The notes beneath the pieces were generated by a model. The model was given only the letters and a program-made list of their open reading frames with translations, was not told the DNA's origin and searched no databases. A program made the position numbers and the translations under genes. Shown here piece after piece: positions 831-50,582 of a stretch of 64,000 nucleotides of DNA. How positions within the stretch are numbered: position 1 is the stretch's first letter; every line of letters starts with the position of its first letter. Source of the stretch: Pyropia yezoensis (Eukaryota; Rhodophyta; Bangiophyceae; Bangiales; Bangiaceae); contig CM020618.1 in NCBI GenBank assembly GCA_009829735.1, positions 30,480,894-30,544,893 on the forward strand, read 5' to 3'.

Positions 831-832
831 TT

Positions 833-11192: not shown

Positions 11193-13039
11193 ATGGCCAC
11201 CTGGTTCTGCCTCGTTACCTCGTCCCGCTTCTCCGTCTCCGTGCCCACGTACCCCACCACACGTACCACCACGTTCCCCTCCACCTGGGCCGCCATAGAA
11301 ACCGGGTGCGCCGCGGCGGGTTCGCCTGCTGGCGCGGGCCCTGGGGTCCCCGACCGTCAAGGTGACCGAGCTGGGCAAGATTGCCCCGGTACTGGGCCAG
11401 GCATACTGGGTGGGCAAGGCGTACACGCTACTCAAGGTGGCCCTGCTACTGGGCCAGACGTTAACTACGAGCCAAGAAGAAACCGGGGCGGGCCAGTTGT
11501 TCGCGGCCATAGTTGGCGTGGTTCCTGAAGACTTCGGACCCGAGGCGGCTACGGCGTGGCGTCGGGAGGAGGCGCGAGGTTGGGTTACTGGTACCCGGTC
11601 TCATGGGATCTTTCAAGCCGTGGACGGGAGCTGACCGGGTAACTCGTTTCGTAAGCAGATGGCAGTGATGCTGGAAGCTCGAATCCCTGTCCTTGCGGAC
11701 CGTTCCCTATCGATCACGGTTGTACGGCACGCGGACGAGGTCGGGTACGTCGAACGGTTCAAGGCGGTCCGCATGGAACTCATCCCAGGGACCCTACCTG
11801 CCGCACCTTCAACCGGTTATCTGATCGGGTCTCCCCCGTACCTGAACCGTCCCGGGTTCCAAGTGACCCAGCCTAGCCTGGTGTTCAGTCGGCAACATCT
11901 TGACAAGAGTCGGTTCCTGGTCGGGTGGCATCCACAAGAGTTCCCCGGCTGTTCAGCGGCTACCCGTGGGCTCCATTACGTTCGGGTTCCACACTGGTTC
12001 GAGAACGTGGAACAACCATTCGGGGCCCTTGTGGAACTTCCTGCCGTCCAGTGATACTTCACGGAACTTCTTCGTTAGTCGGACGCGTTCGCTTGGTACG
12101 TGTTTCAAACGGAATGGGCTACAAACTGTGCGGTGTACCTGCTCGAGTTCGCAAGGCGAGAGGGTTACCTGTGCCACTTCTCTAGGCCCCTTAGTACGTG
12201 GATCCAGCGCGTTGGTACCCGTATCATCTGTCAGGGTCCCGGTGGCGTGGACGAGGCCGCAGTGCGGGACCTGGACGCCCTTCTGACCCTCACTGACCAA
12301 GTGGTCTCCGTGGCGGGGGCTCCGTGCGCGTCTCCTTACTTCGAGGAAACGTCGCAAGGATCGCGGTTCTTTCGTCCGGGTTCGGTTCGATAGTCGGGAC
12401 GGGGTATGGGCGGCTCTGGTAGACGAGGACCTGGCCCCATTGGACCTACCGTACTTGTCGGACGTACTGGAAGGGCGTGAGATCCTCGGGGCCCAGGACC
12501 AGAACGCTGATCAGTCGAACAAGAAGGTTCCGGCAGGTCCCTCTGGGTTTTTGGGCGCTCGGTCATCGGGGTCAGCGGGTCATCGTTCCAACCCTCCCGG
12601 GAGTCGTATCTTGTACGTGGCCAACTATCTGGACCATGGAGACGTGCCCGACGCGGAACTCATGGACCTGAAGGGAAACCTGACTACCACGGCGGTTCTT
12701 GGGCTTCGCACTTTCTTTGGGGGTCCCGCAGACGTCCTTGCTAACGCTCATTTCGGGCCCATGTTGTCGGTCTCCCTGCCCGCGACGGTTAACCTTGGGG
12801 CCCGTGTAGTCGAGTGGACCCTTGTTCAAAGGGGATCCAGTAACCCATACTACAAAGGGATACTGAACCTGGTTGACCGTAACGGGATCCGTGGGGACCT
12901 TGGTGCCGAGTTGGGTAACGCCGAGGCGGCCGGGCGACGTGCCTGGACTGGGACCAAGGAAGGTTCTCGGGTCCGTGGCCGGGACGACATGGACGAGGAA
13001 GAGTCTAATTGTCCCGACAGTCATTTCCGTAGGCACTAG
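11193..13039 (+). pseudogene. Antisense ORF of element B (degenerate)
   Basis: The plus strand is largely open in one frame from about 11362 to 12393 with a few in-frame stops, then shifts to another frame (12440-13039). The middle part (about 11860-12330) resembles the core of the A2 antisense protein: an HYVRVPHWF segment against QVEVPYGF, RREGYLCHFSRPLSTWIQ against RRGMLWHLPLRLIQGLEQ, then an acidic helical stretch (RDLDALLTL against LTLLEEMLRL). Position and direction match too, lying between integrase and the 3' LTR and opposite to pol. The C-terminal end is acidic and basic (GRDDMDEEE) rather than Arg/Ser-rich. The function is unknown. The homology is by eye only. Confidence 0.6.
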
Positions 13040-13084
13040 GTTAGCGAGGGTATGAGGGTTCTGCGGGCGTGTTCCGTGCGTTGA

Positions 13085-13272
13085 CCCTACGTCTTGTTGC
13101 TTGGAGGGTCATAAAGTTTCCACTGGTTCTTGCCATCCTCTTGGTAGTCCTGCCCCCTTTCCATAATCACCCTTTCTTGTAATCCCTGAAAGGAAAGTGA
13201 GAGTAATGGGGGAAAGGGGGAAAGAACCAAACCAAGGTTAGCAAGAAACAGAATTCCAAGTGGCCCTCCTTT

Positions 13273-13309
<37 letters not shown>

Positions 13310-13589: not shown

Positions 13590-15948
13590 ATAACCATGGC
13601 GCTGTCGAACGTATGGTAAGGTTCCCAGGTATCCTCGGACTAGGCGTAACCCCACCAGCGTACCAAGAGCCAAACGTTCCTTTCCAAGGTGGGCCCGTGT
13701 CATCTCACGTACCTGGCGTGCGTTGCAACTGAACTCCTTGGGATACGGGGATTCTGGGAGCCGGTCCAGCTCAAACGTACGCATGCCTTCAGGGATAACG
13801 AACTCAAACAGGGCCACGCCAGTACTCTGTTGTGGCCTTGTGTTGTGCGCCACGGTAAGCACGGAAACCAATTCGTCCCACTGGTCGTGATGGTCCTCGA
13901 TGTACGTACGTAACTGGGCCACGATGGTACGGTTAAAGCGTTCAACTTGTCCCTGGGTCTGCGGATGGTACGTGGTAGACGTTACGTGTTTGATCCCAAG
14001 CATACTGCCGACGCTCGGAAGTGCGTAGACACCAGCTGGGGCCCGCTGTCTGTCAGTAACGTTTCCGGGGGCCCGTAAGAAGCGACCCATGTATCCAAAA
14101 AGGCCGAGGCCACCACTTCCGCGTCTTGACTACTGATGGGTACCACTCTGGTAAGCTTGGTAGACCTGTCCACGATAACCAAAAGGTACTTGTTCCCGTT
14201 CACTGTCTCGGGCAAGGGTCCCACCAGGTCAAGGCATACGTCCTTAAAGGGATCCGTGGCGGGGAACAACTTCAGCGGATTGGTACGTCGCCGTCCCCGA
14301 ACCATACCCTTGGAAGTAGCGGTACAGTTGGTAACAAAAGCATGCATGTCGGCCACTATAGTTTCCCAGTAGAACGTTCGTCTCATAGAGGTATACATCT
14401 CATTGATCCCTGGGTGTCCCGCGTGGCCTGGTTCATGTTCCAAAGTCAGTACTTCCTGCTGTAGTTCCTAGGGGACCACAATCTGAACGGCTCGGTCCAG
14501 AGGAGCCAGTTGTACAAGTGACCCTTTTGGTGTTTCCCCGTACCGCGAGTTAGCGTTCCGGTTCATCTCTTCCTGAAGTTCCTTGCAACGCTTGTCGTTT
14601 CCCTGAGCCTTGAGGATCCTATCAACCGACAACGGTGGGTACCTCTTGTGTGTCCTGAAGTTCGGGCGGATCCATCCGGTAAAAAAGTTGGCCATGGTTA
14701 ACAGGGAAGGTATCTTCTCAGGTAAAGGTCCTCGGTCGTGTCCCGTAGTTTCTAGCCTTGACATAAAGTCTGCAGCATGGTTGTGTTGACCAGGGCGGGA
14801 CTCAGAGGTATAATTGTACTCGGCTAACCGAGGTCGCCAACGAGCAAAATGTCCATGGGCTCCGTCCATGTGTAACATCCACTTTAAAGCGGTGTGGTCC
14901 GTGCGTACAATGAAGCGTGTCCCCTCTAGGTACGGTCGTAAAAGAAAGAGAGCCCCAACAACGGCAAGACACTTGCGTTCCGTGGTACTATAGCCCCGTT
15001 CCGCTTGTGTCAGGACCCTGCTCCAGTAACCCACGAGCGTGTAGGCCCCGTCCTCTTGTTCCTGTAGCAAAACGCAACCAATCTGGGCAGCGCTCGCGCC
15101 GGTATCCACAATAAACTGGCCCGAGCGTCGCGGAAGCGCCAGGATCAGCGTGTGGGTCAGACGGTACTTGAGTTCCTCGAACGAGTCTGTCTGAGCCGGA
15201 GTGAAAGGAGGCAAAGGGTCGGGTACCTTGGTACTTGTCATAGCCAACAGAGCGCGGGCCACCTGAGCATAGTCCTTAACAAAGCGACGGTAAACGTTAC
15301 ACATTCCAAGGAATCTGCGTAGGTCCTTCTTGGTTCTCGGTGTCTTGGCTTCCCGTAGCCCGACTAGATTCTTCTCGATCACGCGGAGCTGGCCCTTGCC
15401 GACAATATGGCCAAGGTACTCGACCTCGTCATGAAACAAAAAGCACTTGCTGACCTTAAGGGAAACACCGGCCGTAACGAGTAGCCAAAAGATCTCTTCC
15501 AGGTGTTCTACGTGTTCCGTAGGATTCTTAGAGGAGACAATAATGTCGTCCTGGTACACGAGGCACGTCTTCCACTTAACCCCGGACAGGATCATGTCAA
15601 TGGCCCGTTGAAACGTAGCCGGAGCGTTCGCAAGACCAAAGGCAGCCTTATGTACCGGAAGGTTCCCTCGTGACACGTGAACGTCGTCTTATCCTGGTCC
15701 TCGGCAGCAACAGGGATCTGCCAGTAACAACAGTTCGCGTCCAACATCGAAATCACGGTTGCTTCTCCCAGAAAGTCGATACAGTCGTCCATCCTCGGTA
15801 ACGGGTACGTGTGCTTAACCGTCACATCGCTCAGTCTGCGAGATTAAACAAAGAACCACGGGGTACCATCGGGCTTGAGGACCAAGACGACCGGAAAGGA
15901 CCACTCAGCCTGAGACAGTTCAATGACCCCGAGCGTGGTCTGCTTTTC
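13590..15948 (-). pseudogene. pol of element B, 3' part (reverse transcriptase, RNase H, integrase, chromodomain remnant)
   Basis: Reading from 15948 downward: the reverse transcriptase segment with AEWSFPVVLVLKPDGTPW, then YPLPRMDDCIDF, then the active site CLVYQDDIIV, with YQDD where the family usually has YLDD or YVDD. RNase H follows (FVDTGASAAQIGCVLLQEQ), then the integrase HHCC finger (HEPGHAGHPGINEMY), core motifs DLVGPLP, LLTDSGPQ and YHPQTQGQVERFN, and a chromodomain remnant near 13600-13690 (WEPYHTFD) interrupted by a stop. Frame changes lie near 15670 and 14050, and there is a stop at 14468. The upstream end is cut exactly at the target duplication of element C. The remainder of reverse transcriptase lies at 34002 and above. 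Confidence 0.88.
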
Positions 15949-16519
15949 TGTGGTATCACACTCGATCCTCTCAGACACGTGTCAATATCCCTCGGAGGAA
16001 AGGGACAGGTAACACAGAAAGGGGAACTACGAGAGTGATATGCCTGTTGCCTGACGTGCCTGCTCGCAGAGCAAACAGATACGCACGGTAGTGCACACGG
16101 GGAAGAGGAAAACAAACACGCAGTTGTCTTTTTCCTGAGGGCGCGGGCCAAGGGCGCCTCGCTGTCCCTCTTAACGTGCATCTGGGGGAGCCTCGGCACG
16201 TTGGCCAGGTAGCCCCCCCATACCCCCGAGTGGCCCCGACCCGAGTCTAACCTCGTCAGGTCAGGGGCCACTATCACTACTAACTCTATTCCCACTCACT
16301 AATCTCACACTCAAATTCTCTCAAATCAAGTCCCTCACAAGTATGCAAAAACCCGTCAGAAATCCCTCTCTCACGTGTGGGTAGCGTAGTCCACCGCATC
16401 TCAGTGCCAGGCACGGGCCACGGCCGCCAACCATCACCACACGGCGGGCGTGCTCTGGCACCTGGTGCCCTCTGGTCGCAGTCCCGGGTCGGCACTAAGT
16501 CGGGGCCACGGATGCTACA
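15949..16519 (-). repeat. 3' LTR of element C
   Basis: 571 bp with TGT...ACA ends. It could be mistaken for a solo LTR because element A2 starts 28 bp away, but the TTTTC duplication pairs it with the LTR at 33431-34001. On the minus strand the LTR is preceded by the purine-rich CTAGGGAGGGAGCTA (16520-16534), a plausible polypurine tract. Confidence 0.92.
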
Positions 16520-16547
16520 TAGCTCCCTCCCTAGTCCGGCACATCCT

Positions 16548-17015
16548 TGTGGCAGTATTGACCCCCAGGTAGGGGGCAACACGTGCCATGCAAGGGGCGG
16601 CAGGCCACTAGCCTGATCCGTTCCTCCCCCTGCATTTGGGTCCATATTCCCTAAGTTCGGGATAGTTAGCTTAGTAGTAAATCCAACTTGGATTTGAGGG
16701 TTTTCTGCATTTATCGTCTTGAATTTTCGTGTGGCCCGGTGGGCAGGTGCTGGGGTGGGAGATTCTGAGTGGCGAGATTCTGAGTGGACCCTGGGGGGAT
16801 AAGGGGAGGGACAGCGGGGCTTGGCCCTGCGTCCCCGTCCCGACCAAGAAACTGTTGGACCACACACCATCTTCTTGTTTGTCCGTGGGGGGATTGCCCC
16901 ACAACAGGGATAGAGTGTGTGCGACTTGCACTTCTTCCGGTTCCCCCGACACGGGAGGCAGCCCTGGCACACCGCCCCAACTTGGGTGCCGTGTGTGCTT
17001 GTGGTTTTTGCCACA
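16548..17015 (+). repeat. 5' LTR of A2
   Basis: 468 bp, TGTGGCA...TGCCACA, with the internal 15-bp direct repeat GAGATTCTGAGTGG. I found no difference from the 3' LTR on reading through. No clear TATA box was seen. Confidence 0.95.
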
Positions 17016-17017
17016 TT

Positions 17018-17034
17018 TGGTGGAGCAGCAGGGG
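17018..17034 (+). other. Primer binding site of A2
   Basis: TGGTGGAGCAGCAGGGG, 2 bp after the LTR, identical to the site in A1 and, on the minus strand, in B (42061-42077) and C (33410-33426). Confidence 0.78.
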
Positions 17035-17134
17035 ACAGAGGTAAACTTTACCTCCGGGTGCACCCGGGTGTAGGGGGCCCTCTGTCTCAGAGGAACGGTG
17101 GACTTGGACCGTGTCATACGGATCGTTAGCCAAC

Positions 17135-19081
17135 ATGGCTAGCTCGGACCCCCCGTCGTCCGGGGAGTACACGGGTGACGCACGTACTTCAGTGCCTTTG
17201 AATACTGGTGAGACACAGGTGGGTTTACCTGGGGTCGCAGAGGGACTAGAGGTCCCTCAAGCCAGCAGGACTGGAAGTACGGGCGGGCAACAGGCCACCC
17301 CGACTCAGTCGGGAGTTCACTCGGGTGACACTTCTGACGTGGGTGGGCCGAAGTCTGGCCACCGCGTGGTATACTCAACGGGAACGTCCCAAGGGGTGAG
17401 GACTGTCCCCGCGAGTTCCACTCGGGTTGGAGCCAACTTTGGCATGGAGCCATCGCCAACTAGGCTTTCGGAGGACGGCGGACCTCCGTTGGTCGGCGAT
17501 GGGCTCGCGCCCATGCCCCCGGTTGAGACCCCTGAGGAACGTGGTTACCCCTCAGGTGGACTCCCGAAGGCGGACCGAGACTCAACTGGAGTCGTCAATC
17601 CACTCCTCGCGGAAACTGTCCGTCGGGAGGCGACCAATGTGTTGCGGCAGACTTTGCCGGACCTGGTGGTCACGATGACGAATACTATTCTGAATCAGAT
17701 TGTGGCGAGTTTGCCAGATGGCCTTAATGTCCAGACCGGATTGGGGCCTTCGAGCCCGCAGGCGCAGGGGGTGCCCCCCCTGACACCTATCTCGGGTCGC
17801 CCTGAACAGGGGGCGACCCCTGTGACTCCCAACGAGGGAGCCACACCATACTCGGTGGGGCGTACGCCCTTCATGGGGGAGTTCCCCCCGACAACACCGG
17901 CGGCTACACCAAGCGCGCCGCGCCGGACTACAGGCACTGTGGGTGAACTTACCCCAGTGCCACAGCGGCTGTTCCCTCAACGTGAGGTGCCGCCCAAGAT
18001 CCAGGTAGCCAACCCGGTCTACCAGAGGATCTTTGACTGTGAGACCTACGCCCTCCACAACAAGTCGGTGGCGTATGGTCCTGACCAGGCCCGAGCCATG
18101 GGCCGTGCCAAGAAGAATGCACTTCACTCTTTTGGGCACAAAGCGGAGTGGGATGGAACTCCCCCCCTCCGTGTCTTTGAGTTCCTACGTCGTTTCACAA
18201 AAGCCTGTGACGACAATGCCATAAGTGAAGGCATGGCTTTTTACATGCTACAGGAGTTTACGAAGGGAGACCTGCGGACAGAACTTATGTCCGTCATGCC
18301 CAGCTCCTCAAGTGGAGGCGCTGGGGAGGTGACGTCCTATTTGGAGCTCGTCAACTGGTTGTTGAGGGCCATGGTTGATGAAGCGGCGTTGGCTTCTCAA
18401 GTCGAGGAGTTTACGCAAGCCCATCAGGAAGAGGCGGAGGACGAGTTGTCCTTTGCGGAGCGAGTCCGTAAGCTCAACAATCTTTGTGGGTTTCTTCATC
18501 CACAAGCTGTGGTGAAGAGTCGGTTTGTGGAAGGACTCCACTGGTCAGTCCGGATGGAGACCCGGGAGCATAACACTGCCCGGGCGACCCTGGCCGAGTT
18601 GGCTAGGTTCGCCTACCGCAGAGGCGAGGCCTACCGCAAGTTGCGGGAAGAACAACGCCAGGAGCGTCAGGCCGAGTTGGCCAAGGAACGGGAAGAGGCG
18701 CGCCAGGCCAGAGAGTTGCGAGAGGCACGCCGAATCCGCAAGGAGAGGGTGGTAGCTGCCGTGGGAACTTCCCAAGGTACCTCGTCGTCTTCCCCAGTTG
18801 GGAAGACCCCTCCGGGAACTGATCATCGGTGTTGGAACTGCAACTCCGATGGTCACTGGGCATATGATTGCCCCAAGTTGAGTAAACGCATCCAACAGCT
18901 TGTTAGGAATGCGAGTAAGAAGTCGGCTACGAACGAAGTGCGTTCACGCCGCGAGGGAGGGTCTCGACCAGTGGTGGCGGTCGCCACACCCTCGACGGAG
19001 GGGGCGGACACGTCGTCCTCGGACTCGTCGTCGTCCCCTTCGCCCTCAGATTCGGACGCCAAGTCGGCGGGAAACGAATGA
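17135..19081 (+). CDS. gag: Gag polyprotein of A2
   Basis: 648 residues. ATG 17135 (AACATGGCTAGC) is chosen because it is the first in-frame ATG after the leader and is conserved in A1. The N-terminal half is Ser/Thr/Pro/Gly-rich and probably disordered. A Retrotrans_gag-type capsid region follows (about FEFLRRFTKACDDNAISEGM to the LNNLCGFLHPQ area), then a long Arg/Glu-rich helix that looks like a coiled coil (EEQRQERQAELAKEREEAR). Next come the nucleocapsid zinc knuckle CWNCNSDGHWAYDC (CX2CX4HX4C) and an acidic Ser/Asp tail. Gag packages the RNA and forms the particle. The stop overlaps the pol start as ATGA. Confidence 0.93.
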   Translation: MASSDPPSSGEYTGDARTSVPLNTGETQVGLPGVAEGLEVPQASRTGSTGGQQATPTQSGVHSGDTSDVGGPKSGHRVVYSTGTSQGVRTVPASSTRVGANFGMEPSPTRLSEDGGPPLVGDGLAPMPPVETPEERGYPSGGLPKADRDSTGVVNPLLAETVRREATNVLRQTLPDLVVTMTNTILNQIVASLPDGLNVQTGLGPSSPQAQGVPPLTPISGRPEQGATPVTPNEGATPYSVGRTPFMGEFPPTTPAATPSAPRRTTGTVGELTPVPQRLFPQREVPPKIQVANPVYQRIFDCETYALHNKSVAYGPDQARAMGRAKKNALHSFGHKAEWDGTPPLRVFEFLRRFTKACDDNAISEGMAFYMLQEFTKGDLRTELMSVMPSSSSGGAGEVTSYLELVNWLLRAMVDEAALASQVEEFTQAHQEEAEDELSFAERVRKLNNLCGFLHPQAVVKSRFVEGLHWSVRMETREHNTARATLAELARFAYRRGEAYRKLREEQRQERQAELAKEREEARQARELREARRIRKERVVAAVGTSQGTSSSSPVGKTPPGTDHRCWNCNSDGHWAYDCPKLSKRIQQLVRNASKKSATNEVRSRREGGSRPVVAVATPSTEGADTSSSDSSSSPSPSDSDAKSAGNE

Positions 19082-22000
19082 CCGTTGGAGCTGGTCGTCC
19101 GAAGCTCACAACGGCAGCCTCGGCCAAGTGGGCCAAGAGGACGAACCAACCGTGTCGGATACTGCGGCGACCTAAGGGAGTCCGCCCACCTCGGGTGGGA
19201 CTTCCCAAGAACGTAAACCCACGTCGGGTCATCGCGGTGCTGACGGGTGAGAACTTCCAGGTGGCTGGACGGGTGCAACTTGCCCCCGGCCGCGCCTGTT
19301 GTGTCCGTATCGTATTTGATACCGGGTCAGGAGCCTCCTTGATACGCAAGTCGCTATTACCAAAGGGGATGAGGCTCCAACGCTGGAAGTCTAAAGCTGA
19401 CCATCTGATCGATATCAATGGTGGGGTACTTCCCATCGTTGGTGCCGTGACCCTACCAACTCGGTTGGGGACCCATGAGGTCGACGTGACCTATGGTGTA
19501 GTTGAGAATATATCGGTACCCCTGCTTCTGGGTACCCCTTATGTCGTAACACAAGTGCCTTTGATTTGTGGCCCTGAGTACTGGGTCAAGTTGATGAATG
19601 GGGAGACTATCCCCATCCTTGGTAAGGGAAAGTCTGTGGCTCCTGTGACAGTTTCACAGTCGAAGCCTGTTTGTTCTGTGAGGGAAGGGTTTACTGCTAC
19701 TCTGCGTTTAGCCCGTAAAGTCATGTTGCCCCCCAACTCGGTGGCGCACGTGGATGTTGTAACTGATTATGCGGGGAACGGGTTGGTGCACCCTAACCCC
19801 CGTCTTGCTCGCAAGCACCAAGTGCATGTTGCCCTTGGCACGATGGACTCCAAAGCCGGAGTCCCGTGGAGGATCCAGGTGATGAACCTGAGCTCGTCGC
19901 CCAAGTTCTTCAAGTCGGGGGCCAAGTTCGGCTATATCGACCAACATGAGGGACCGGTAGTAGCGGTCACCCTCAACGCGGGCGCAAGTAGCGACCCGAA
20001 GTCCGGAAAGGAGAAGCATCAAGCCAAGTCGGCCACCTCTCCTCGGCCCCATGTGAACATGGAGGGTGTTCCCCCCCGGTTGAGGGTTCAAGTTGAACGC
20101 CTCTTGGACCAATATCACAAGTTGTGGGATGGTCAATTGGGACTCATGAGAGCCACCCAACACCGGATCGAGTTGAAGCCCGGTGCACCCCCTATACGCC
20201 AACAACCGTATAGGGGAGGACCTCGTTCAAGGGCCCTCGTTAAGGAGCAAGTTGCTCGCATGGAGGCCCTCGATGTGATCGAGGCCAGCAACGCCGAGTG
20301 GGCGAGTCCGGTGGTTATCGTCCCCAAAGTTGATGGGACCCCCCGGTTTTGTATCGACTACCGTAAGCTCAACGAGAGCACGGTGAAGGACAGTTATCCC
20401 CTACCTAGGATGGATGACTGTCTGGACTCCCTGGGGGAGGCAAACGTGTTCTCTACCCTGGACTGTAACGCGGGGTACTGGCAAATTCCCATTGCCCCGG
20501 AGGACAGGCATAAAACTACCTTTACCTGTCACTGTGGTACCTACCAGTGCAAACGCCTACCGTTTGGTCTGTGTAACGCGCCGGCAACTTTCCAGCGCGC
20601 TATGGACATGATTCTCGCCGGAGTACGGTGGCAGATCTGTCTTGTGTACCTAGACGATATCATTGTGTTCTCCCGAAGTCCGGAGGAACACATTGGCCAT
20701 CTTGGCCAGGTGTTCAAGCTACTTGCTGACGCCGGTGTGTCACTGAAGGCGAGTAAGTGCCACCTCTTCACTCAAGAGGTGGAGTACTTGGGACATGTTG
20801 TCCGTCCTAGGCGTCTCAGTGTTAACGAGAAGAACTTGAGGGCCATACGTAAGGCTCAGTACCCCCGGACCCAGACCCAGATGAGGAGCTTCCTCGGGAT
20901 GTGTAACGTGTACCGACGTTTCACCAAGGGCTTCGCCAAGGTGGCGAAGCCGTTGAATGAGCTAGTGAGCTCAACGCTACCGAAGAACCTGCCTCCCCCA
21001 AGTCGGGTGGAGCAGGAATCCTTTGAGACTCTTCGGGACCTTCTGCTGAAGCCCCCCATCTTGGCTATTCCTAGGTTGGGAGGCCACTACATCCTGGATG
21101 TGGACGCTAGCTACGACCAACTTGGTTGTGTGTTGCTTCAGCAACAGCCGGACAAGGAGTACTTGCCGGTGGGATACTTCAGCAAGGGGCTAAACTCGGC
21201 CGAGAAGAACTACGGAGTCACCGAGTTGGAAGGACTCGCAGTGGTATGGGCGGTGACGTCACTTCGTCACTACCTAGAGGGTGAGAAGTTCCTCATCCGC
21301 TGTGACCACCGCGCGTTGCAGTTCATCTTCAAAACGGACTGTACGAACACTCGTCTCAACCGGTGGAGGGTGCGACTTGCACCCTTCAACTTTGATATTG
21401 AGTACCGACCTGGCAGGCAACATGCCCTTGCCGACGGCCTCTCTCGGGTACCTACCGAGGGACTGGACACCACCCCAGTCGATGAGGACATCCCCATCGT
21501 GGGGGTAGTCACGCGCTCGGGTCAGGCGTTGAATCCCGAGGCGCCAGGGAACAAGAAGTACTTGCCCCTGTCCCTGGACGAAGTAGTGAAGGCCCAGGCC
21601 GAGGATCTCTTCTGCAAGTCGCAGAGGGATACCCTGGATACAGTGGCGGAGACGCGGTTCTTCCTGGGAGACGATGGCCTCCTCATGAGGAGGGGGGTAT
21701 TCCAGGGGACCGAACAACTTGTCGTCCCCGCATCCCTCAAGGACAGTATCCTTGAGAGGGAGCATAACGCTCCCACGGGTGGACACCTGGGGTCTAGTAA
21801 ACTGTACCAGACCCTGAGGACCAGGTACTACTGGCCGTCCATGGTGGTGGACATCTACAGTTGGGTGGCTGCCTGCACAAGTTGTGCACAGAACCGTCTG
21901 ATGGAACGGCGGCCTACTACGGCTATGCTATTGTTCCCGGCCAAGGAGCCCTTCGCCGCGTTGGCGATGGACATCCTTGGGCCACTGCCAGTGACCGAGG

Positions 22001-23061: not shown

Positions 23062-23172
23062 GGGAAGGCCGAGCAACAGTGCCAAGAGAGTGCTTCAAGT
23101 CGAAGTGGTACGCAGAGTGGCTTTTAACTACAGCCCTAACCCTCACACTCTCACAACAAAGGCAGCTGCCAA

Positions 23173-25287: not shown

Positions 25288-25446
25288 GCTGCCAAGTGGG
25301 CAAGCTTGAGGAGAGGGGCGGCCAACGTGACCGCCTCCACATCCGCGTTACGTACTCAAGGGGGGGACAGCAAGTCGCGTCCCCCCCCAACGCCGAGACG
25401 TGCGTTTACGCACCCCCTCACAGGGCCGACCGGGTCGGTCGGAACT

Positions 25447-25459
25447 GAGGAGAGGGGAG
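25447..25459 (+). other. Polypurine tract of A2
   Basis: GAGGAGAGGGGAG directly before the 3' LTR, identical to that of A1. Confidence 0.82.
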
Positions 25460-25927: not shown

Positions 25928-26089
25928 ATCCTCGGGCCGAACAAGGTGCCACCGTGCACAGCCTCGAGCACGTCCACAGCGGTGCCGAGGTCGAGCGTCT
26001 TGACCCGGAGCACGATCACCTGGACCAATCCTGCCCCCCCCCCCTCCTCCTTCACCTTGACCCTCCCGTTCCCCCGGATTCCGGACGTC

Positions 26090-33426: not shown

Positions 33427-33430
33427 AATA

Positions 33431-36609: not shown

Positions 36610-36715
36610 CGCCGCCGCCGCCGCCGCCTCCTCACCGCAGCGGTGCCCGCGGGCGTACCCCCTCGACACGTCCGCGGCGGTCAGGCCCAGCACCTCTGCG
36701 CACGCCCCCCCATTG
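36610..36715 (-). repeat. Second copy of the Cys-containing sulfurase segment
   Basis: The minus strand reads GGCACNGGACAEVLGLTAAD then YARGHRCGE, a close copy of the segment at about 38015-38110 (GGCACNGGACAEVLSLTAAK, then YVRGHRYG). Both copies are followed by CCG/GGC repeats. In a normal sulfurase this segment occurs once, before the MOSC domain; here the extra copy lies after MOSC-like sequence. This indicates a partial tandem duplication or two overlapping gene copies. Confidence 0.65.
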
Positions 36716-37971: not shown

Positions 37972-38002
<31 letters not shown>

Positions 38003-38241
38003 CCACCCCCACCGTAGCGGTGCCCGCGGACGTACCCTCCCAACCCTTTCGCGGCAGTCAGGCTCAGCACCTCAGCGCACGCCCCGCCATTGCACGCGCA
38101 CCCCCCCCGAAGGGCCACCCGCCTCGCCGCCGCGGCGGCGACCACCGCCCCGTGCGGGACGTACCCCCCCCCCCGGGTGCGCACACTAAACGCCACCACC
38201 GTCCCGCCAACCGCGGCCGTGCACGCGGACGCGGACATCGC

Positions 38242-38262
38242 GGCGGGGGGGGGGGGGGGGGG
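38242..38262 (+). repeat. Homopolymeric G tract inside the hAT-like element
   Basis: A run of about 17-18 G beginning shortly after CGCGGC near 38242. Several other C or G runs of 8-10 lie nearby. Such tracts are prone to length errors, which may explain frame changes in the sulfurase-like gene. Confidence 0.7.
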
Positions 38263-40233: not shown

Positions 40234-41940
40234 TTACTCTTTTCCCGAGGGTCGCGGCTCCTGGGAACCGACGTTCACGTGGCACCCTTGGTCCGCCGCG
40301 TCATCCGAGAGGTTTATGCCTTCACAAAGGGCCTGTACCATAGCAACTTGGATCTGACGATGGAACTGGCGGTCCGCGTTCGGCTTTACTTCGGTACTCT
40401 GACTCCGTCCACGAGTGGCCGCAAGGAACGAGTCCCGGGCCTGGATAACCGCTTTCCGTTGGACCGCAGACAACATGGAACATCGATAGGCCATGTGGCC
40501 CGGTTCCCAACAAATGTAACAACGGTACGGGCGTCGACTGTCCATGGTACGTACTCCCACGAACTGGGGCGTGGGTCCCTTGAACCCAAACACTTGACCC
40601 GACCCGTTCTTCTAAGTTTCCTTCTCGAGGGGGCCCTTAAGGATCGTAGAGAGGCCCATAGGATTAACAGCCATCAACGAGGACGAGTCCAGCAAACGAT
40701 TGGGCCTCGGTTCAATGGGTCTGCGGACGGTTCCAGATGGGCCAGCCTTGGTCACAGAGGCCCCTCGAACCATCTTGATGACCTCGGTAGCCGCCTTGCT
40801 CTTGCCCGCAATAAACTTTACAAGCTGCTGGTACGTACGGTCAGGGATTTTGTAAACAAATGAGTCCGTACGTAGGTACTCAGGGAGCCTTTGAATCAGC
40901 TGCTGTTTCATGGTACCTTCGGTGTGGATGTTACCACATAATTCCGTCAGACCCCGTAAGCGTACCGCAAAAGCCTCGATACCTTTATCTGGTTCCTTGG
41001 CGGCCCGACTGAACTTATCCTGCGCCAGTGCCAACGCATGGGGTTCAGCGTACGTTTCAAGGAACCAGTTAACAGCCTCGGGGTAACTCGTGATCGAAGC
41101 GCCACCTGACGCGCTTGAGGAGTCCGGAAGGGCCCGAGTGTACCGCAGTTCCGCGTCCCCAGACAGGAAATGAGGGATCGCGTACAGGGCCATGCCCTCG
41201 GAAACCCCATTATCGTTACATGCCTTAACCAGTTTTCGGAGCCACGTGAAGACCTTGAGGGCCTCTTTCCCAGAGAAGTCAGGGTACCCAGCAAAAGAGT
41301 GTTTCATGCTACGAGCAACCCGTCCCATATTGTGTGCTTCTCGCGTTCCATAGGTCGATTTTTTGTTCCGTAGGAGAAACGCACGATAGTCCAGGACCCG
41401 AGCAAAACGATCGTCGGAACACTTGATTACCTGGGGCTCGGTTCGTGGGTTCCGAATGGGTTCCAGGTCCTCCTCGTCAAATACGGATGAAATTGGGGTA
41501 CCAGAAGAAGAAGAGGAAGAGGAGCCACTCGAATAATGACGACGCCGGTGACGGCGGGAACGAGAACGATCGGAACGACTGGTATCACGGGACCCACCCT
41601 GGCCAGCAGGACTCTGGCTCAGGGCCTGGGAAACAGTAGCCAAAATCTCATCTCGAAACGTTTCCAGTGTGGACAGAATGTCGGGGGACCCAGTAACAGT
41701 GGCCGAAGGTGGAACTCGGGTCCCTGACTCGGAACCCGCGTCCCCGCGTAAATCCTGACCCGTTGTAGCCCGGATCCCACCCGGGGGCGCTGTCCCCCGA
41801 CGAGGAATCCCTGCCTGCCCGCCTCCACCACGGTTCGACGGACCCGAGGGACCGCCGCGGCCACGGCCAGCGGGAGTAACCATCGAAACGTCCGACGGCG
41901 CACCACGGCCCCGACCGCCCGAAGGGACAGGGTCCGTCAT
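40234..41940 (-). pseudogene. gag of element B
   Basis: ATG 41940 opens a frame with a Gly/Arg/Pro-rich N-terminus (MTDPVPSGGRGRGAPSDV), a Ser/Arg stretch (SRSDRSRSRRHRRRHYSSGS) and a capsid region (HSFAGYPDFSGKEALKVF, WLRKLVKACNDNGVSEGMAL). A stop at 40612-40614 interrupts it. The same frame then continues with the zinc knuckle CYICWEPGHMAYRC to 40234. Apart from that stop the frame is intact. The hAT-like element starts 10 bp downstream, past its target duplication. Confidence 0.88.
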
Positions 41941-42060
41941 GTTCGCCGTGCGGCACTCGAACTGAACCAAACGATCTCGTTAACGGAAACGGGAACCGAG
42001 GAACCAAACGCCACAGAGCAAGAAGAGGGCTGTCCCGATAAGGGAGAAGAGTAAAGCCCT

Positions 42061-42077
42061 CCCCTGCTGCTCCACCA
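42061..42077 (-). other. Primer binding site of element B
   Basis: The minus strand has TGGTGGAGCAGCAGGGG four bases after the 5' LTR end (42082), identical to families A and C. Confidence 0.75.
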
Positions 42078-42081
42078 TAAA

Positions 42082-42726
42082 TGTAGCGTAATGGGACCCA
42101 GATTCCCGGACCCAGAAACCACAACCACACACACAGAGACCACAGTCCGAAGCCCAGGAAGGAACAGGTAAGAGCCCTTGCTGGTCCACTCGCCCGCCAC
42201 GATACGAGGCAACGGTAAACAGGACAAAAAAGCCCGAGGGAGAAGGAACCCAAAGCACTGTTGATTTCTCAAGATGGCCCCGGGGAGAACCCCGGAGCAC
42301 CCCTCAAGAACCTTCCCCCCCTGGCCGCTCCAGGGGCCCTGAGCGAGGCCACCAGAGGGCGCCCCCAGCGGGCCAAGTGCCAGCAAGGCACAGGCCGCTC
42401 GCCGGGCCAGCACACAAAAAGCAAGCGAAATCCCCCAACACAAATTTAAATCCCCGAAAAAAACCCAGTGGGTAAAAGGGGAAAGACACGAAATCACGCA
42501 AGGAAAACAAATGCGAAAAATCAAGCAAATAACCCGAAGGTCAGTATGCCCCAACCCGGCAAGTCCACCGCTCCGGGTGACCAATCAGGGCGCCGGGCGT
42601 GTCGCCACTGCCCCGGGCCACCCATGCAGAGATTCTCGCGCAGCGCGTGGCTCCACGTAACACTGCCAGCCGGGTCCCAAGTCAGTCTCCCGGGTTCCAA
42701 CGGTCCCGGGGGCGCAGAACGCCACA
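42082..42726 (-). repeat. 5' LTR of element B
   Basis: 645 bp; minus strand TGTGGCGTTCTGCG ... CATTACGCTACA. Flanked by ACCTT at 42727-42731, matching 10075-10079. It has dozens of differences from the 3' LTR, indicating an old insertion. Confidence 0.9.
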
Positions 42727-42731
42727 ACCTT

Positions 42732-44691
42732 CACCAGGGGACTCCCTGATGGCATGATTGGCTCGCATCGAGGCCCGGCTCACCGGCCTCGACGACAGTC
42801 AGGAGCGTACGGAGGACGCAATGGCTGTGCTGATGTCAACACGCCACACAACGTTACCCCGTCGTGTTCCTTTCACTCCGGTACGGTTCGAACCGGCCGG
42901 ACTGCTTTCGGAGTCCATCAGGGTCGACCCCGGCGTTGCTACTCCTGGACAGCCCCCGGACACGGGGTGTTATGGATCCGACTCGTCAGCCGAATTGGAT
43001 CGTAGCCATACGGAGTGCTACGCTCGGAAAACCCAGAGCGGGCTCCGCGGACATGGCCCGGCGGATACTTACGCCGGAACAGAGTCGGCGATGGGGGGAG
43101 GCGGTACCATATCGCAGTACCCCTCGACGACGGAAGCCAAGCAACTCGAGTACCCGAGGCGCCGACGCCGGAAGTTCCAGCGTCTCTGGTGCAAGCTTTG
43201 ACAGCGCAGGTTACTGCGAGCTTACTGAAACGGATGGAGTCCGATGAGTTCGCCCATCAACTGGCCAAGCGACTGGATATCCAGGACGCTGACACGGAGA
43301 TCGTCAACGAAGTCTTCAGGTCTGTACTGACTCCTGAACCTTATCATTTGGAAGACCGATCCGCTACCGTATCGGAATCGATGCGTACTACCTCGCACCG
43401 AGCGATCCGCTCTATGCAGACCCTTATGAAGGGAGTCCCTATGTTCGGGGGCCCGAACGGACGCCCGTTGGCAGTCATTGGCTTCTTGACTAGCTTCAAG
43501 GCAGCCGCAGACAAGGCACTCGTTAACGAGGGGCTGGCTCTGGAGATCCTACCGTTCGTTGTTGACGAACGGGTACGAGGCATCCTCCGCCAGGCATCCC
43601 CGATGCCGGGAATGAGGGTCGCAGCCACCCCCAAGGATTACCGTGGTATTCTGAAGGAGCTGCTTCGCAGCTACTTCAGTGAGGACAAGTGCGAAAACCA
43701 CTACCGGGCCTTTCGCACCGCCACCGCCCAGTCCTGGGAGGATGAGGAGATTTTTGGACGCCGGATCCAAGAGCTCGAGTACGAGCTGGGGAAGCTTCTC
43801 GGCGAAGGGGAACTACGGGCCATCCTGTTCGCAGGAGTACTCAACTATGTGCGGATATCCGCACGGGGAGCCAATACGGCTCGGACGAACTTCAGTCGAC
43901 TGATGCATATGTGCAAGTCCCTCGGGGACGCCTACCGGGCGCTACACCCGGAGTGTGCCTTGGCCCCGAGGGCCAAGGGTGAGGAAGGCAAACCCAATCT
44001 TACCCCGGTACCGAGGCAAGAGAAGGTGGAACGTAAGGCCGCACCAGTACTGGTGGCGACGGAGTATGCCCCCACGGGTGAGGAAGGACCTCTAGTCGAC
44101 CAACAGGGCCACCTGTTGCTACCGGCGACTCCGGTGGTTGATGGACAAGGTACGGTAGCGTACATGGCCCAGGCTGGGACCCAGTTCCAGGTCAATGAGG
44201 GCGCGGGTCGACGCGTCCCGTATGTACGGACTACGGGGTATGCCCCGGTTACGGGTAATCCCCACCAACCCCTGCCGACATGGGCAGTGCGTACGGAGGC
44301 ACCTCCGCACATCGCGGGTAGAACCAACCGGCTGGGGGAGTCCATATTCCGTTTGGCACCGGGACCCAAGGCCTACCAACGGGCAGGCACTTGGGCACTC
44401 GAGGCAGGCAATCGGACCTATGGAGCCAACCCGACGCGGACGCCCGGGACGGCCGGCCTTTCCGGATGTATGCTGTGCGGAGACCCCCAACACTGGGTGT
44501 CCTCATGCCCGCTCATCCCGGAGGAGTCTCGACGGGCAGCGGCGCAACGCAAGGCATCCATCGGGGGCTATTCCGCCAGAGCACCCGCACCGGGTAGGCA
44601 GCAAGCTCCAGGAGGAGTACTGGCAGTCGAGGAGGCACCTCCTCTCCCGGATGTCCCGGAGGACAGCCCCCGGCCAAGCGCGGGAGACTAG
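42732..44691 (+). pseudogene. gag of element D, right piece
   Basis: It continues the frame left at 10079: SPGDSLMA, then a TGA at 42755-42757, then ARIEARLTGLDDSQERTEDA. A frame change near 43100 leads into the long open frame 43015-44691, which holds the capsid (LKRMESDEFAHQLAKRLDIQ, then KGVPMFGGPNGRPLAVIGFL) and a zinc knuckle CMLCGDPQHWVSSC (CX2CX4HX4C). The tail is Pro-rich. The frame ends at 44691, where the pol frame opens in the -1 phase, as in family A. Confidence 0.82.
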
Positions 44692-47600
44692 TGAGAGGCA
44701 GGACGACCCGGGGTCGCTGGGGCAACCCTACCAAGCCACCCCGGACGGCTGCGGGGAAAGCTCCACGGAGAGCGCGGTTGAGACGACGCCGCATCAATCC
44801 CCGGGTACACCTTCCGGCCCCGACGACACAGCGTCAGGGGATTGACGACCAACCTCCAAGGTGGGGAGGAGAGGACGGGAAGCCCCGTCACATGGAACCA
44901 GACGAGGGCCCTGTTCAGGATGCCCGAGCTACACCGGATATCGGTGTAAGCCATGTACTGCTCACCTAGGAAAACTTCAAGGTATCAGCCACACTGGGTG
45001 TTGACCCCCAGTCCACCCGATCGTATTACCCTGAACTGGAAAGAGGGGCTGGGCCAAACCTTATCCGGAAGGATACCCTCCCGGACAAGTGGCTCCCGCG
45101 AGTCAGAGTGACTCGGGGATCCACGATCAAGGATGCGAATGGTCGTCTCATTCGTACGACCGCAGCGATGTCGCTGCGGGTCACCATCGGGGAACTCACT
45201 ACGGAAGTCGACTTCCTGGAATGTGAGACTGTATCTGTGCCCTGCATACTGGGGTTCACCTTCATCAACGTTCACGTTGATGCAATCCGGCCGGGCTGGA
45301 GGACCGTCGAGCTGCAAGAGGCCGACGGGACGAAGAGAGGACAGACAGCTATTTTCAGGGACCTGACGCTACAAGGGAGCCACGCTCACGTGGCTGAGGT
45401 ATACGCAAGCGTAGAACCGAAGACACTCCGGCTGGCCAAGCGGACTCGCTTTGAGCCGTAATCGGAGACAGTCCTCCCGGTTAACTGTGACCTCGCAAGC
45501 ATCTGCAGAGTCCAGTCCAAACTACGAACCTAAAAGCGCCATGGGTTGACCATGGCCAACGGCATCGTAGACCTCCCAGCGGGGGGGTCATCACTGCTCG
45601 TGATGGCGAACTATCGCCGGAAGGCAGTCACCCTTCCGAAAGGGACTATCCTCGGGATCGCCGAGCTCGACGAAGGAGACATCCTTAACCCTGACAAGGA
45701 AGGTCAAGTGGAACCACTTGAGGTGCTGGCGGTCACCGAGACCACCGAGCTGCAGCAACCCGATGACGGGAAGCCTAACCAATCAACAGCTCCGGCGGAC
45801 ATTCCAGCAAAGGACCAAGAAGCCTCGAAGGCCCTGGCCGAGGCTGACCTCGACCACCTTCCCCCTTTGGTGGCTGAAGGGGTACGACGGATGCTAAGAA
45901 AGCATGACGTCATGTGGACCGGCGGGGCGCTGGGTACCATTGGGGCAACCCAACACCGTATAGACCTGGTACCAGGTGCTCGACCAGCGCGGTCGCAACC
46001 GCATCGCGCGGGACCTATGCAACGAGAGATCGTTGATGGAGTAGTGAAGAGAATGAGCGAAGCTAAGGTGATCCGACCTTCGATGTCGGAGTGGGGCGCC
46101 CCAGTCGTTATCGTACCAAAGAAGTATCAAACCCCTCGGTTCTGCATCGATTATCGACGCCTCAACTTGGTAACCAAGAAAGACTCATACCCTTTACCAA
46201 GGATTGACGAGTGTATCGACTCCGTGGGGGACGCCACAGTGTTTACCACTATCAACTGCCATGCCGGGTACTGGCAGATCCCAGTTGCAGAGGAGAATGT
46301 CCCCAAGACGGCGTTCGGCTGTCACAGTGGAGTGCACGAGCTCCTAAGGATGCCCTTTGGATTGTCCAACGCCCCCGCCACATTCCAGCGGGCCATCGAC
46401 ATTATACTGTCGGGAGTCAAGTGGCGTAACTGCCTGGTGTACCTGGACGATGTCATCGTCTTCTCGCGTAACATGGATGACCATGTGCAACATGTCGATG
46501 AGATACTCACCCTCTTGCGGAACGCCGGGGTAACCCTGCGTCTCAAGAAGTGCGCCTTATTTCAGCAGACCGTCGAGTATCTGGGTCACCAGATCACGTC
46601 ATGCAAACTGGGAGGGCTCGAAGCTAATACCCAGGCACTCTGGGATGCGCAATACCCTATCACCCAGACACAGCTGAAAAGCTTCCTGGGGATGTGCAAC
46701 GTATACCGACGGTTCGTGAAGGATTTCGCTCGTATGGACAAACCGTTAACGGTTCTGACGAGCAGCTCCTTGCCAAAGGTACTCCAACCTCCCTCGCCTA
46801 GCTAGGGAGAGGCATTAGAGCTGCTCACGCAAGCGCTGCTAGCCCCACCCGTGCTTGCGTTGCCGCACAGACGCGGGACCTTCGTCATCCACGTCGATGC
46901 CTGCGATACCCAAGTGGGATGCACCCTGTTGCAGGGAGAGACAATCATCGGTATCGATAGTGCCATCCCGGCCCTACATCCGGTGGGGTACTTCAGCCGG
47001 ACACTCAACCCGGCTGAGAGTAACTATAGTGCTACCGAGCGCGAGTGCCTCGGAGTCATATGGGCAGTGCAGCTGCTCCGGCCATACCTGGAAGGGTCCA
47101 GGTTCATCGTGAGGTCCGACCACGACCCTTGACGATGGCTCCTCAACCTTGGTGACAAGGGTTCCGTCAGCCATGGACGGCTAGCCCTGTGGAGACTGAA
47201 CATGGACGAGCACAACTACCGGACCATATATAAGGCCGGCGCTACCCATCATCTGGGAGACGCGCTGTCTCGACTCGACACACCGAGCGAGGACACCCGA
47301 CAAGTGGACGAGGACATCCCGGTGGTACCGTTTTGCATGGTGGGTAACGCCACCCAAGGTATGGTTGACCATACCATGGCACACCTTGCGTGCCCATTGA
47401 CCCTCGCGGACTTCGGCGAGGCACAGGCCAATGACGATGACTGTAAACGCCATCGTGCTAACCTCCTGGCCGGCACGGCCGGCATCGTCACCGAGAATGA
47501 GGACGGACTCATATACCGGCGGGCACCCGCGGATGGACGACATCAGGTCGTGGTTCCCGTATCCTTACGACGAGCCGTCATGGAACGGGAACACGAGAAC

Positions 47601-47945
47601 CCTACAGCCGGACACCCGGGGGGGTCGCGCATGTTCGCAGCAATGTGGAGGTTCTACTACTGGGCAGCAATGGCCGTCGACGTAGTCGACCACGTGCGGG
47701 GATGCCACCCGTGTGCACGGAATCGTATGAGTCTTCATAGGCGGGCATCCGCTATGAAACTCTTCCCTCCGAATGGGCCCAACGAGCAAGTCGCTATCGA
47801 CATACTCGGGCCACTTCCGATAACGGAAAAAGGGAACAGGTACATCCTGGTCATGTCGGACCGCTTTGTTGGAGCGGACTTAGCCAACCTAAGTGGGCTA
47901 CTGACTTTTACAAGTTTACTTGAAGGAGATGACTCACTCCGATAA
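44691..47945 (+). pseudogene. pol of element D, truncated in integrase
   Basis: One frame is kept from 44691 to 47945, interrupted by stops at about 44967, 45459, 45531, 46803 (TAG) and 47130 (TGA). Protease: LERGAGPNLIRKDTLPD near 45036, with ERG where the catalytic D-T/S-G is expected, and VPCILGFTF later. Reverse transcriptase: RFCIDYRRLNLVTKKDSYPL and the active site CLVYLDDVIVFSR. RNase H: VIHVDACDTQVGCTLLQGE. Integrase: HHCC finger (REHENPTAGHPGGSRMF ... CHPCARNR) and the first core motif IDILGPLPITEKGN. After VMSDRF (about 47865) the sequence no longer matches integrase, so the second Asp, the Glu and any chromodomain are missing. Confidence 0.87.
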
Positions 47946-48266
47946 TTTCAAAGTAGCCTGAGGCTTACACCAAGGTAAACCTTCATCCATGGGGCAAGTG
48001 ACACCGGAAAAGGTTGACCTTCACGAGTATTAACCAACCAGGATGGGTTGGGGGCGCGAGAAAAACCAAGGCAAGCCACTGCTAAGGCAGACGGGGTACT
48101 CCCCAAAGGCAGCCTTCGGTAACATGCAAGCGCCCCAGCGGGGGATGAGTTTTACTCACTACTACCCGGCCACCGTAAGGGTCACCGGGTCCCTCTCCCT
48201 CACAAACACCAGCACTCCTCAGGGGGTACCCCCGCTGCCCGAATGAGGCCACTCACGCGTGAACGC
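47946..48266. other. Unassigned sequence between truncated integrase and antisense ORF of D
   Basis: About 320 bp without recognisable coding sequence on either strand. It replaces the missing integrase C-terminus, probably the result of a deletion or replacement within D. No inverted repeats or short target duplication were seen. Confidence 0.5.
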
Positions 48267-50582
48267 TTACACCTCCATGCTCCACCGGTCGGCAATCTCG
48301 CAACGGTCAATCGCCTGAGTTACCTCAGTGCATAGCTCCACGAGGGTGCTTCGGCAAGCCTCCACTTCCTCCAGAGCTATCTGGAGGCGGTCCAGCACCC
48401 CACCGAAGCAACGCGCGGAACCAACCAGCGCAGCACTTGGGGAAATATCCCCCCAGCTAATAGAGAGACCCTCCCGCAGCTCGCGGGCTATGAGGGCGTT
48501 AACGCCCTCATACCATAGACGGGGACCCCCGTCACGCATGAAAGGGACGGAAGGTGACACTGGCGCAGCCAGAGGAGCCACAGGAGCCGATACGGCTACC
48601 ACCGGAGCCGGTGCCGCCCGATACGAGGACGGGTAGGACCCCACGGAGGGGGCTCCACCGTAAACCCGGCGGTACTCCGCCCGGCGACGGGACACCTCAC
48701 GCTCCCCACCCGTAGAGTCCCACTCTCGGGGACGACGGCCGTTGCCCACTGGTATCGGGTTAGAGAACCACGGGGCCAAGACCTGGAGAGGGTCATGCAT
48801 AACGATGGGAGTATCCAGGTCAGGAACAGCCTCTGTGGATGCCCACCCACGGTTACTGGGCTCATTCTGCTGAGTACGCCGGATGCGCAACGAGTGACGA
48901 GGCAAGGGGGCAGCCCCAGCGTACGGATCCCGGTACGGGGGAAGGGTCAATACCTCAGCCCAGTTCACGGCATCGTGAACGGCCAGGAGGGCCTCGAACT
49001 CCCGGGCCAACCCGGTCTTGGCAGCAATCATGTCAACGCGCAGCTGCCCGATATGCAGACGGACACCCGTCGGAAGGCAAAACAGCCGCCCCTGCCGACG
49101 GACGGACAGCAAGAAGGAGGAAGCCCGCACGAGGGTAACCTCGAGGGTGAAGGTCCCTTGCTACGGGTGTGCAGGCCGGGAGGCCAACACACTACCGAAG
49201 TATCGGAGACAGGAGCCGGTGTCAAACCGAAAAGCCGGAGCGGGCTCCCACCCCTCCTGCCACAGAGGCGGGCGCACTGGAGTGTACAACGGCGCGCGGC
49301 CGTTACCGGTCTGCAACGCACACGTTATATCGGTGCGGAACGCATCCGCCATGACACCATGGTTGCGTCGCCAGCTCGACGCCGACTTCAGCCTCGCCAT
49401 GGGCGGATGCGGCGCCGTCAACGTCAGATACGGGGATCCCCCCGGGAAGTACTCAAACCCGGGATACCGGCCGGTATCGGCGACAGTCTGCCCGAACGCA
49501 ACAGGGGCCACAGCCGCCGCACTCTCTCGAGCACTAGCCGGGTAGTCAACTTCCCGCGGCAACGCGGGGGCAACGAAGTCGCATACCCCGAAGGCGAGGT
49601 TGAGAAAGACTTCACCCCGCCCGAACCGGGTGCGCCAGAGCTGTGCATGCCGGTCGTCCGGCTGACTCAGGATCCAATGATGCTCCACACGGACCGCATT
49701 CAGCTGGTTGACCAGCCGCGACAACTCCCGCTCCCAACTCGGGTCCAACTTGATACGCCGGGAGGAGCCTCCACGGTAGCTCGGTGGGTGGAAGTCCACC
49801 CGCATCCGCCCAGCGGAGTCCATGGGCTCTTGTACGGTGAGGCCTCGAACCCGAGCCACCAAGTCGGACACCGACGGGGAGGGTTGACCCGCCGCCAAGG
49901 CGACGCCGCCACCCAGCGGGGCCACCCGGACGAGCCCAGGAAGAATCGGCGGCGCCGAGGGAAGCCCCACCGGCAGATGGGCCGGCGCCGCAGGCGCACG
50001 GGGGCGAGGAGGAAGAAGAACGGCGGGCGCCCGCCCGGAGTAGCTCCGGGAGTCCACCGCCATCGGGGAAGACACGTCTTGACCACCAATCGCCCGCGGC
50101 ACAGCGGGAAGAGCGCCGCCGCCACCCGGGCCCGACGAAGGCACAACGGGGACGGAGGGGGTAGACCCGTCAACCACCCCCGCGGACGGACCACCCACCG
50201 GGCTGTAACCCGCGCCATCTTAACCCGCCGTCCCGGCCGGGGTGCCGCCACGACCGTCAGAAGCAGCGGCTGCACCTTCTTAGGGTAGAGCCACGCCAGC
50301 ACCGGCGACAGGAGGCATCCGGGCCGCCGGAGGAGTAGGAGTAGAGGCCGCCACACGCGGTTGACCGCCCCCCGACGGAGCCGTCGTGCCGCTGCAAACG
50401 GACGACAACCCGCCCGGCGCGCCCGCCGCAGCCACGCGGACGGTCACTTGATCCTCGTCGTCCGATGAACTCGCAAGGAAGCACTCGGCAGCGGTGGTGG
50501 AGACGGGAGTGTCGGCCTGCATCACCTCCTTCTCCTCAAACAGGATTTCGTCCTCGCCCCCGGGCACCTGGGGGTCCGACAT
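48267..50582 (-). pseudogene. Antisense ORF of element D
   Basis: From ATG 50582 (MSDPQVPGGEDEILFEEKEV) one minus-strand frame of about 770 codons runs to the TAA at 48267, interrupted only by in-frame stops (about 50280, 50225 and 49161) and no frameshift. The N-terminus is acidic, then Pro/Ala-rich. The middle (about 49300-48960) resembles the A2 antisense core: RYFGSVLAS against DHFGSVLLT, VRRQGRLFCLPTGV against VQRRGMLWHLPLRL, FEALLAVHDAVNWAEV against LEEMLRLHKFIEWESI. The C-terminal part ends in a leucine-rich, coiled-coil-like stretch (LDRLQIALEEVEACRSTLVE). It lies opposite pol, between integrase and the 3' LTR. The function is unknown; the homology is by eye. Confidence 0.7.

Follow-up and report, generated by a model that had tools for sequence, protein, structure and literature searches.

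A conserved candidate antisense gene in four Ty3/Gypsy retrotransposon families of the red alga Pyropia yezoensis

Introduction

An additional gene on the antisense strand between pol and the 3' long terminal repeat (LTR) is known from retroelements of plants and fungi, and here we describe a candidate gene of this kind in four Ty3/Gypsy families of the edible red alga Pyropia (Neopyropia) yezoensis (nori). Genes in this position form the aORF-3R class of additional ORFs. It was studied from a stretch of 64,000 nucleotides (assembly GCA_009829735.1, contig CM020618.1, positions 30,480,894 to 30,544,893), which is called the window below and to which all plain coordinates refer. Among the described systems, Retand is a Ty3/Gypsy element of flowering plants with a long region between pol and the 3' LTR and with antisense open reading frames (ORFs) in recently active copies; according to passages of PMC11963269, these ORFs belong to TRP28, a regulatory role has been proposed for them although their function is unknown, and TRP28 occurs only in flowering plants. 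GENE23 of the maize element Grande has an upstream promoter of its own that drives its transcription, and it encodes a nuclear protein; both GENE23 and its counterpart in rice RIRE2 are described in passages of PMC7264820 as conserved like other element proteins. The Boty-like elements of Botrytis cinerea, also Gypsy elements, carry an extra antisense gene, brtn, between pol and the 3' LTR (passages of PMC8365987 and PMC7264820).

The nori elements share with Retand the Ty3/Gypsy type, the long region after pol and the antisense frame, but they differ in host, and their proteins gave no match to the TRP28 domain (PF04195). With GENE23 and RIRE2 they share position and strand of the gene, and with brtn its place between pol and the 3' LTR; these likenesses, however, are drawn by description and not by sequence, and the hosts are different, that of brtn being a fungus. 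In human T-cell leukemia virus type 1 (HTLV-1), HBZ is a regulatory gene located on the minus strand close to the 3' LTR. The nori proteins differ from HBZ in host and size, and no Pfam domain, bZIP included, was above cut-off in them. The antisense promoter of HTLV lies in the 3' LTR (passages of PMC7264820).

We found no paper joining an antisense ORF, Rhodophyta and a retrotransposon in a search that left subscription literature mostly uncovered; titles and abstract beginnings for Pyropia and Porphyra named none, and the passages of PMC2864245 and PMC12477816 contained nothing on antisense genes of retroelements. The kind of gene is known from plants and fungi; this protein family appears to be new. 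An apparently unrelated protein family would occupy the same slot in red algae, the earlier cases in the sources consulted being from flowering plants and a fungus. The nori gene offers an independent case of this architecture, and the many open copies in the genome make antisense expression and function testable.

Antisense frames in the four families

In each of the four families, designated A, B, C and D, a frame of one protein family lies on the strand opposite to the element between integrase and the 3' LTR. The original prediction had reported four long antisense ORFs in A2, B, C and D, in families with different LTRs and diverged pol; their places and strands were verified, the LTRs do differ among the families, and pol identity between families is 47-59%. 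In copy A2, the frame that had been placed at 23173-25287 was likewise recovered, but its start was not: position 25287 is a TTG, the frame is open for 724 codons over 23173-25347 (minus strand), and the ATG of the conserved frame lies at 25116. A3 carries the second intact copy of the window (56306-58453, plus strand, 715 codons open) in an element on the minus strand, and all others are broken. The largest open piece of A1 is 5882-6802 (minus strand), in a region (2735-8636) with 96.8% DNA identity to A2 20026-25929. The B copy (11193-13039, plus strand) is decayed, with a C-terminal open piece at 12287-13039, and its DNA is 90% identical to an intact relative. The C copy (26090-28238, plus strand, ATG at 26090) contains three stops and a frame change, its main open pieces being 26633-27466 and 27321-28238, and the D copy (48267-50582, minus strand, ATG at 50582) contains three internal stops.

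The slot between integrase and 3' LTR was seen directly in the window for A and C, where both LTRs are present. For D the 3' LTR was located through a relative; for B the window holds the 3' LTR with reverse transcriptase (RT) and RNase H, and pol through integrase was taken from an intact relative. In A2, about 110 bases separate the end of the frame from the pol stop, and 344 bases separate its ATG from the 3' LTR; the corresponding distance from ATG to LTR in D is 559 bases. Pol and the antisense frame were on opposite strands in one intact copy each of B, C and D, and integrase was found downstream on the opposite strand at 23 of 30 D loci, among them the one in the window.

Similarity between the families

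Profiles of the antisense proteins were compared with each other in two rounds, the second with fuller profiles. In the second round the expect (E) values were 7e-19 for B-C, 8e-12 for A-B, 3e-7 for A-D, 2e-6 for A-C and 7e-5 for B-D; these five of the six family pairs scored 47-152, and a combined profile of A, B and C matched D with E 4e-12 and a score of 104. Twelve unrelated window ORFs, which included three at gag positions and GC-rich frames, scored no more than 25.0 against the fuller profiles, and in the first round the highest scores were 31.4 among ten column shuffles per pair and 26.7 among reversals. The core shared by the four families aligns collinearly from A to D and consists of a VEVP.GF-type segment (A VEVP.GF, B VEVPFGA, C VEIPVGF, D WEPAPAF), YFgsvL, R.G.LwhLP and an LL..(L)H/D end. 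An EVP.GF segment, R(R/Q).G.L..LP and an acidic LL helix had been recognized by eye in the original prediction; their order holds in all four families and the similarity exceeds shuffled, reversed and unrelated controls, narrowly for C-D, so that the proposed profile comparison between families yielded matches above the level of composition. A PyL/PfL motif upstream and YFgsvL are extra to the features listed earlier. Identity of the antisense core between families is about 20% vs 47-59% for pol.

Selective constraint on the antisense frame

The ratio of nonsynonymous to synonymous substitution rates (dN/dS) was estimated by the Nei-Gojobori method with Jukes-Cantor correction in our own script. 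For the antisense frames of A2 and A3 it was 0.24, while the same script gave 0.17 for pol and 0.30 for gag. Six pairs in B gave 0.21-0.40 at dS 1.1-1.7, which is near saturation, and the medians were 0.28 in C (45 pairs) and 0.48 in D (91 pairs). These values indicate that the antisense frame is under purifying selection. The family is old, identity being down to about 50% in pol and about 20% in the antisense core, yet selection still acts on it.

Phylogeny and origin

In the phylogenetic tree of pol (849 shared columns), the grouping (A,D)(B,C) was better than both alternatives, with p values of the approximately unbiased test (p-AU) of 0.005 and below; 1000 replicates were used, which the program warned were few. 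The antisense tree was built from 251 columns of 13 sequences, leaving out P0013 and P0014, which lack parts, and it also placed (A,D)(B,C) best, with 94% support for B+C. The suggested comparison of the two trees therefore favoured the same grouping in both, but the antisense alternatives were only disfavoured (p-AU about 0.075). The agreement fits joint descent of the antisense gene and pol, without proving it. Further claims had been that one ancestral gene was kept through family divergence and that it is a conserved third gene of the lineage and not a chance frame; the former is borne out by purifying selection, many open copies and homologs in Pyropia vietnamensis, and the latter by the profile links, the dN/dS values and the open copies. 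On this sequence evidence, we consider it highly probable that the antisense frame is a conserved, protein-coding third gene of single origin.

Alternative explanations

Long open frames may arise by chance or from shared composition in GC-rich, stop-poor DNA; the GC content here is high, and the longest frame in shuffled sequence of the same length averages about 210-250 codons. However, 500 dinucleotide shuffles of each of four frames gave longest frames of 392-510 codons vs 651-845 in the real sequences, dN/dS is 0.2-0.5, and the profile scores of five of the six pairs and of ABC-D stand far from the control maximum of 25 (C-D alone, at 28, is hardly above it), which leaves this explanation next to no probability. 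Nor is there any appreciable chance that the coding strand is the sense strand, with an env-like gene of which the antisense frame would be a shadow. Long overlapping sense frames do exist in single copies, such as 48558-50288 of the window, and the sense reading of the A2/A3 antisense region gave dN/dS values of 1.16, 0.32 and 1.79 in its three frames. Yet 48558-50288 has no Pfam match, the A2 and A3 sense frames hold 14-29 stops, the frame at 0.32 included, and in each of 23 open copies the other five frames hold 4-29 stops; these copies were picked for openness, and the zero stops of their antisense frame are by construction. We take the value of 0.32 to mirror the antisense codon structure. 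A different view is that the functional product is the antisense RNA, acting as double-stranded RNA, through small RNAs or by transcriptional interference, and not a protein. Non-coding antisense transcripts are known elsewhere, and RNA and protein roles may coexist (passages of PMC7264820), but an RNA product leaves unexplained the codon-structured substitution and the 49-67% antisense protein identity between B subfamilies at dS 1.1-1.7, and we regard it as very unlikely.

The hypothesis that the four families gained the gene separately, or that it was exchanged between elements, draws on the far greater divergence of the antisense protein than of pol, and on an antisense tree test that is not significant and some quartets that disagree. 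It has to account for a slot and strand that are identical in four families, and for an antisense tree that favours the pol grouping with 94% bootstrap for B+C; we consider it unlikely. There is likewise only a slim chance that the nori protein is a very distant member of TRP28 (Transposase_28, PF04195), in which case the antisense gene would be older than the divergence between plants and red algae. The two agree in slot, strand and size class within Ty3/Gypsy elements (passages of PMC11963269); however, a search of the nori genome with the PF04195 profile, run without a plant-genome positive control, gave no match up to E 10, the antisense proteins scanned with Pfam gave none either, and the same passages report TRP28 solely from flowering plants.

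Copies and distribution

The search of the genome for relatives scored only the best candidates of each family, and its counts therefore favour intact copies and are not family-wide shares. Under this scheme, all 62 scored A copies (from 14,186 first-look candidates) kept the 724 codons open at about 100% identity, 133 of 140 C copies had no stop inside the matched 277-residue piece, and 120 of 132 D copies had none inside the matched 297-residue piece. For B, 105 matches were found, with identity falling from 86% to 27% (100% for the window's own), many of them with open frames of 549-663 codons. Across the relatives, open frames reached 549-846 codons in the stretches examined, and many copies were shorter.

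Two loci showed unusual arrangements. Four same-strand antisense matches of family C (L044-L047, G000:C2:16966861-16975701) follow each other at intervals of exactly 2,673 bases, which looks like a tandem array whose repeat unit includes the antisense gene. The D copy L013, in which the antisense frame is open for 765 codons, is followed by a D LTR in opposite orientation, and it seems that a further D element is located within or next to this copy.

Protein searches revealed two homologs in Pyropia vietnamensis, MMPV_008444 (32% identity across 59% of the query) and MMPV_001347 (49% across 31%), both annotated as hypothetical and compared as protein sequences. P0006-P0012 were also returned, and P0007, which matches A at 37% identity across 39% of the query, possesses the shared core. 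The profiles can thus be used to annotate frames that gene finders call hypothetical proteins, P. vietnamensis being an example. With the B profile only, 76 pattern matches were obtained in viral contigs, none encoding a relative, and the best sequence match in the PDB had E 0.56, which was taken as chance. One other Gypsy family of the nori genome was checked (L081, G000:C1:23120800-23123800), in which RT hits at a spacing of 6.6 kb point to neighbouring copies and whose integrase end looks, by eye, chromodomain-like. No convincing profile match was found in the 2.1 kb after its pol: the best hmmsearch hit had E 0.0024 and 6 bits, in a short ORF and a tiny search set, and hhalign scored at most 23.4 over four ORFs. 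Because this family lacks the gene in that stretch, the antisense gene is one of this lineage and not of every Gypsy element, as judged from one other family.

Putative function

Pfam scans of the antisense proteins at loose thresholds returned no domain above cut-off and no bZIP match; two matches to domains of unknown function (E 0.014 and 0.14) were below threshold and were dropped. Eight proteins were measured: none has a membrane-like segment (highest 19-residue hydropathy 1.54), and the first 60 residues of A2, both D proteins and two of the three B proteins are acidic. The A2 tail is basic and serine/arginine-rich, with marked basic runs resembling a nuclear signal (KRR, RRRRR, RRK, RRGSRR). 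Two other identities were tried and rejected. An origin from gag was not supported, as the antisense profiles scored at most 20.2 against three gag-position ORFs, the level of the controls, and an env-like gene was dismissed on the grounds that only the antisense frame is open and that the eight proteins have no membrane segment.

In the explanation that we favour, one gene would have been present in the common ancestor of the four Ty3/Gypsy families and inherited with pol, lying tail-to-tail with it between integrase and the 3' LTR. An antisense mRNA would start in the 3' LTR or in the adjoining leader (344 bases long in A and 559 in D) and encode an accessory protein, about 530-790 residues long and free of membrane segments, that may act in trans on the expression of the element itself or on nuclear steps of retrotransposition. 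The lack of a membrane segment, the acidic N-terminus and the basic A2 tail, together with the slot, fit an accessory protein that an antisense transcript would encode, and the role in trans is modelled on the proposals for Grande GENE23 and Retand ORF4. The role of accessory regulator, reached by analogy, is tentative and falls a little short of an even chance, and to the explanation as a whole, a coding gene of single origin with an accessory regulator as its product, we assign a probability of roughly 0.55.

Several observations weigh against this explanation. The C and D profiles alone gave E 0.02 and a score of 28.3, which is not significant and barely above the controls, and this weakest link is bridged through A and B. 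The two other groupings of the antisense tree were not rejected, and the four single-representative quartets were divided, two yielding (B,C) and two (C,D), the latter with an internal branch near zero. In 7 of the 30 D loci no integrase lay within 1.5 kb; at these loci similarity to the reference copy stops about 0-0.75 kb from the frame, or another element follows. The C and D proteins have short basic runs (RRRR, RRR) and two of three B proteins have none, and an AlphaFold model on a 7-sequence alignment was unusable (mean predicted local distance difference test score 36), so that no activity can be named. Finally, the evidence for the gene comes from DNA and from predicted protein sequences.

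A broader reading, which we think improbable when its parts are taken together, is that retroelements of plants, fungi and red algae filled the same antisense slot, tail-to-tail with integrase, independently with unrelated proteins. The reason would be that a gene in this place is silent during sense transcription and active otherwise; the nori gene would then be a self-limiting switch by which a 107-Mb genome can carry many young, near-identical copies side by side.

Structure of the window

Comparison of the window DNA with itself and with relatives revealed a nest of Ty3/Gypsy elements, A2 in C in B in D. The assignment follows from TG...CA LTR ends, 5-bp target duplications (in A2, C and B) and the order RT-RNase H-integrase. 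Element A2 (16548-25927, plus strand) has LTRs at 16548-17015 and 25460-25927 and the target duplication ATCCT, and Pfam places gag with a CCHC zinc knuckle at 17045-19081 and pol with RT, RNase H and integrase at 18919-23061, both on the plus strand; a chromodomain match in pol is weak (19.4 bits, under the cut-off of 25.1). Element C, with A2 inside (15949-34002, minus strand), has LTRs at about 15949-16520 and 33431-34002, the duplication TTTTC, and Pfam matches to pieces of RT (30636-31526), RNase H and integrase (29340-30224). Element B, with C inside (10080-42727, minus strand), has LTRs at about 10080-10724 and 42074-42727 and the duplication ACCTT; RT and RNase H match at 14468-15688, and an ORF at the gag position (40612-41979) has no domain match. 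Element D (plus strand) is split by B into 9645-10079 and 42720-51503; its RT (45534-46805) and integrase zinc finger (47133-47945) were found by Pfam, its LTR of about 364 bp was defined through a relative, the 3' copy lies at about 51141-51503, and the 5' LTR is missing in the window. A1 occupies 362-8634 and A3 runs from 55726 to the window end on the minus strand.

The LTRs of A2 are identical (0 of 468 bases differ), while divergence is 1.5% in A1, 2.1% in C and 8.6% in B, and the broken antisense frames of A1 and of the window copies of B, C and D accord with this. Through the nest, divergence climbs outward from A2 to C to B.

About 4.9 kb of the window (35287-40215) is absent from the B relative L076 and is probably an insertion of some kind. 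The region at 36-40 kb is very GC-rich (0.73-0.78) with long open frames, and the five that were scanned had no Pfam match. A1 has TG...CA ends, yet no 5-bp target duplication could be matched between its flanks; since the 5' LTR of D is also missing left of 9645, the corner around A1 and the left edge of D seems to be rearranged. Beside A1 and the split D lies a second partial B piece (8651-9643), inverted relative to B and 86-87% identical to it.

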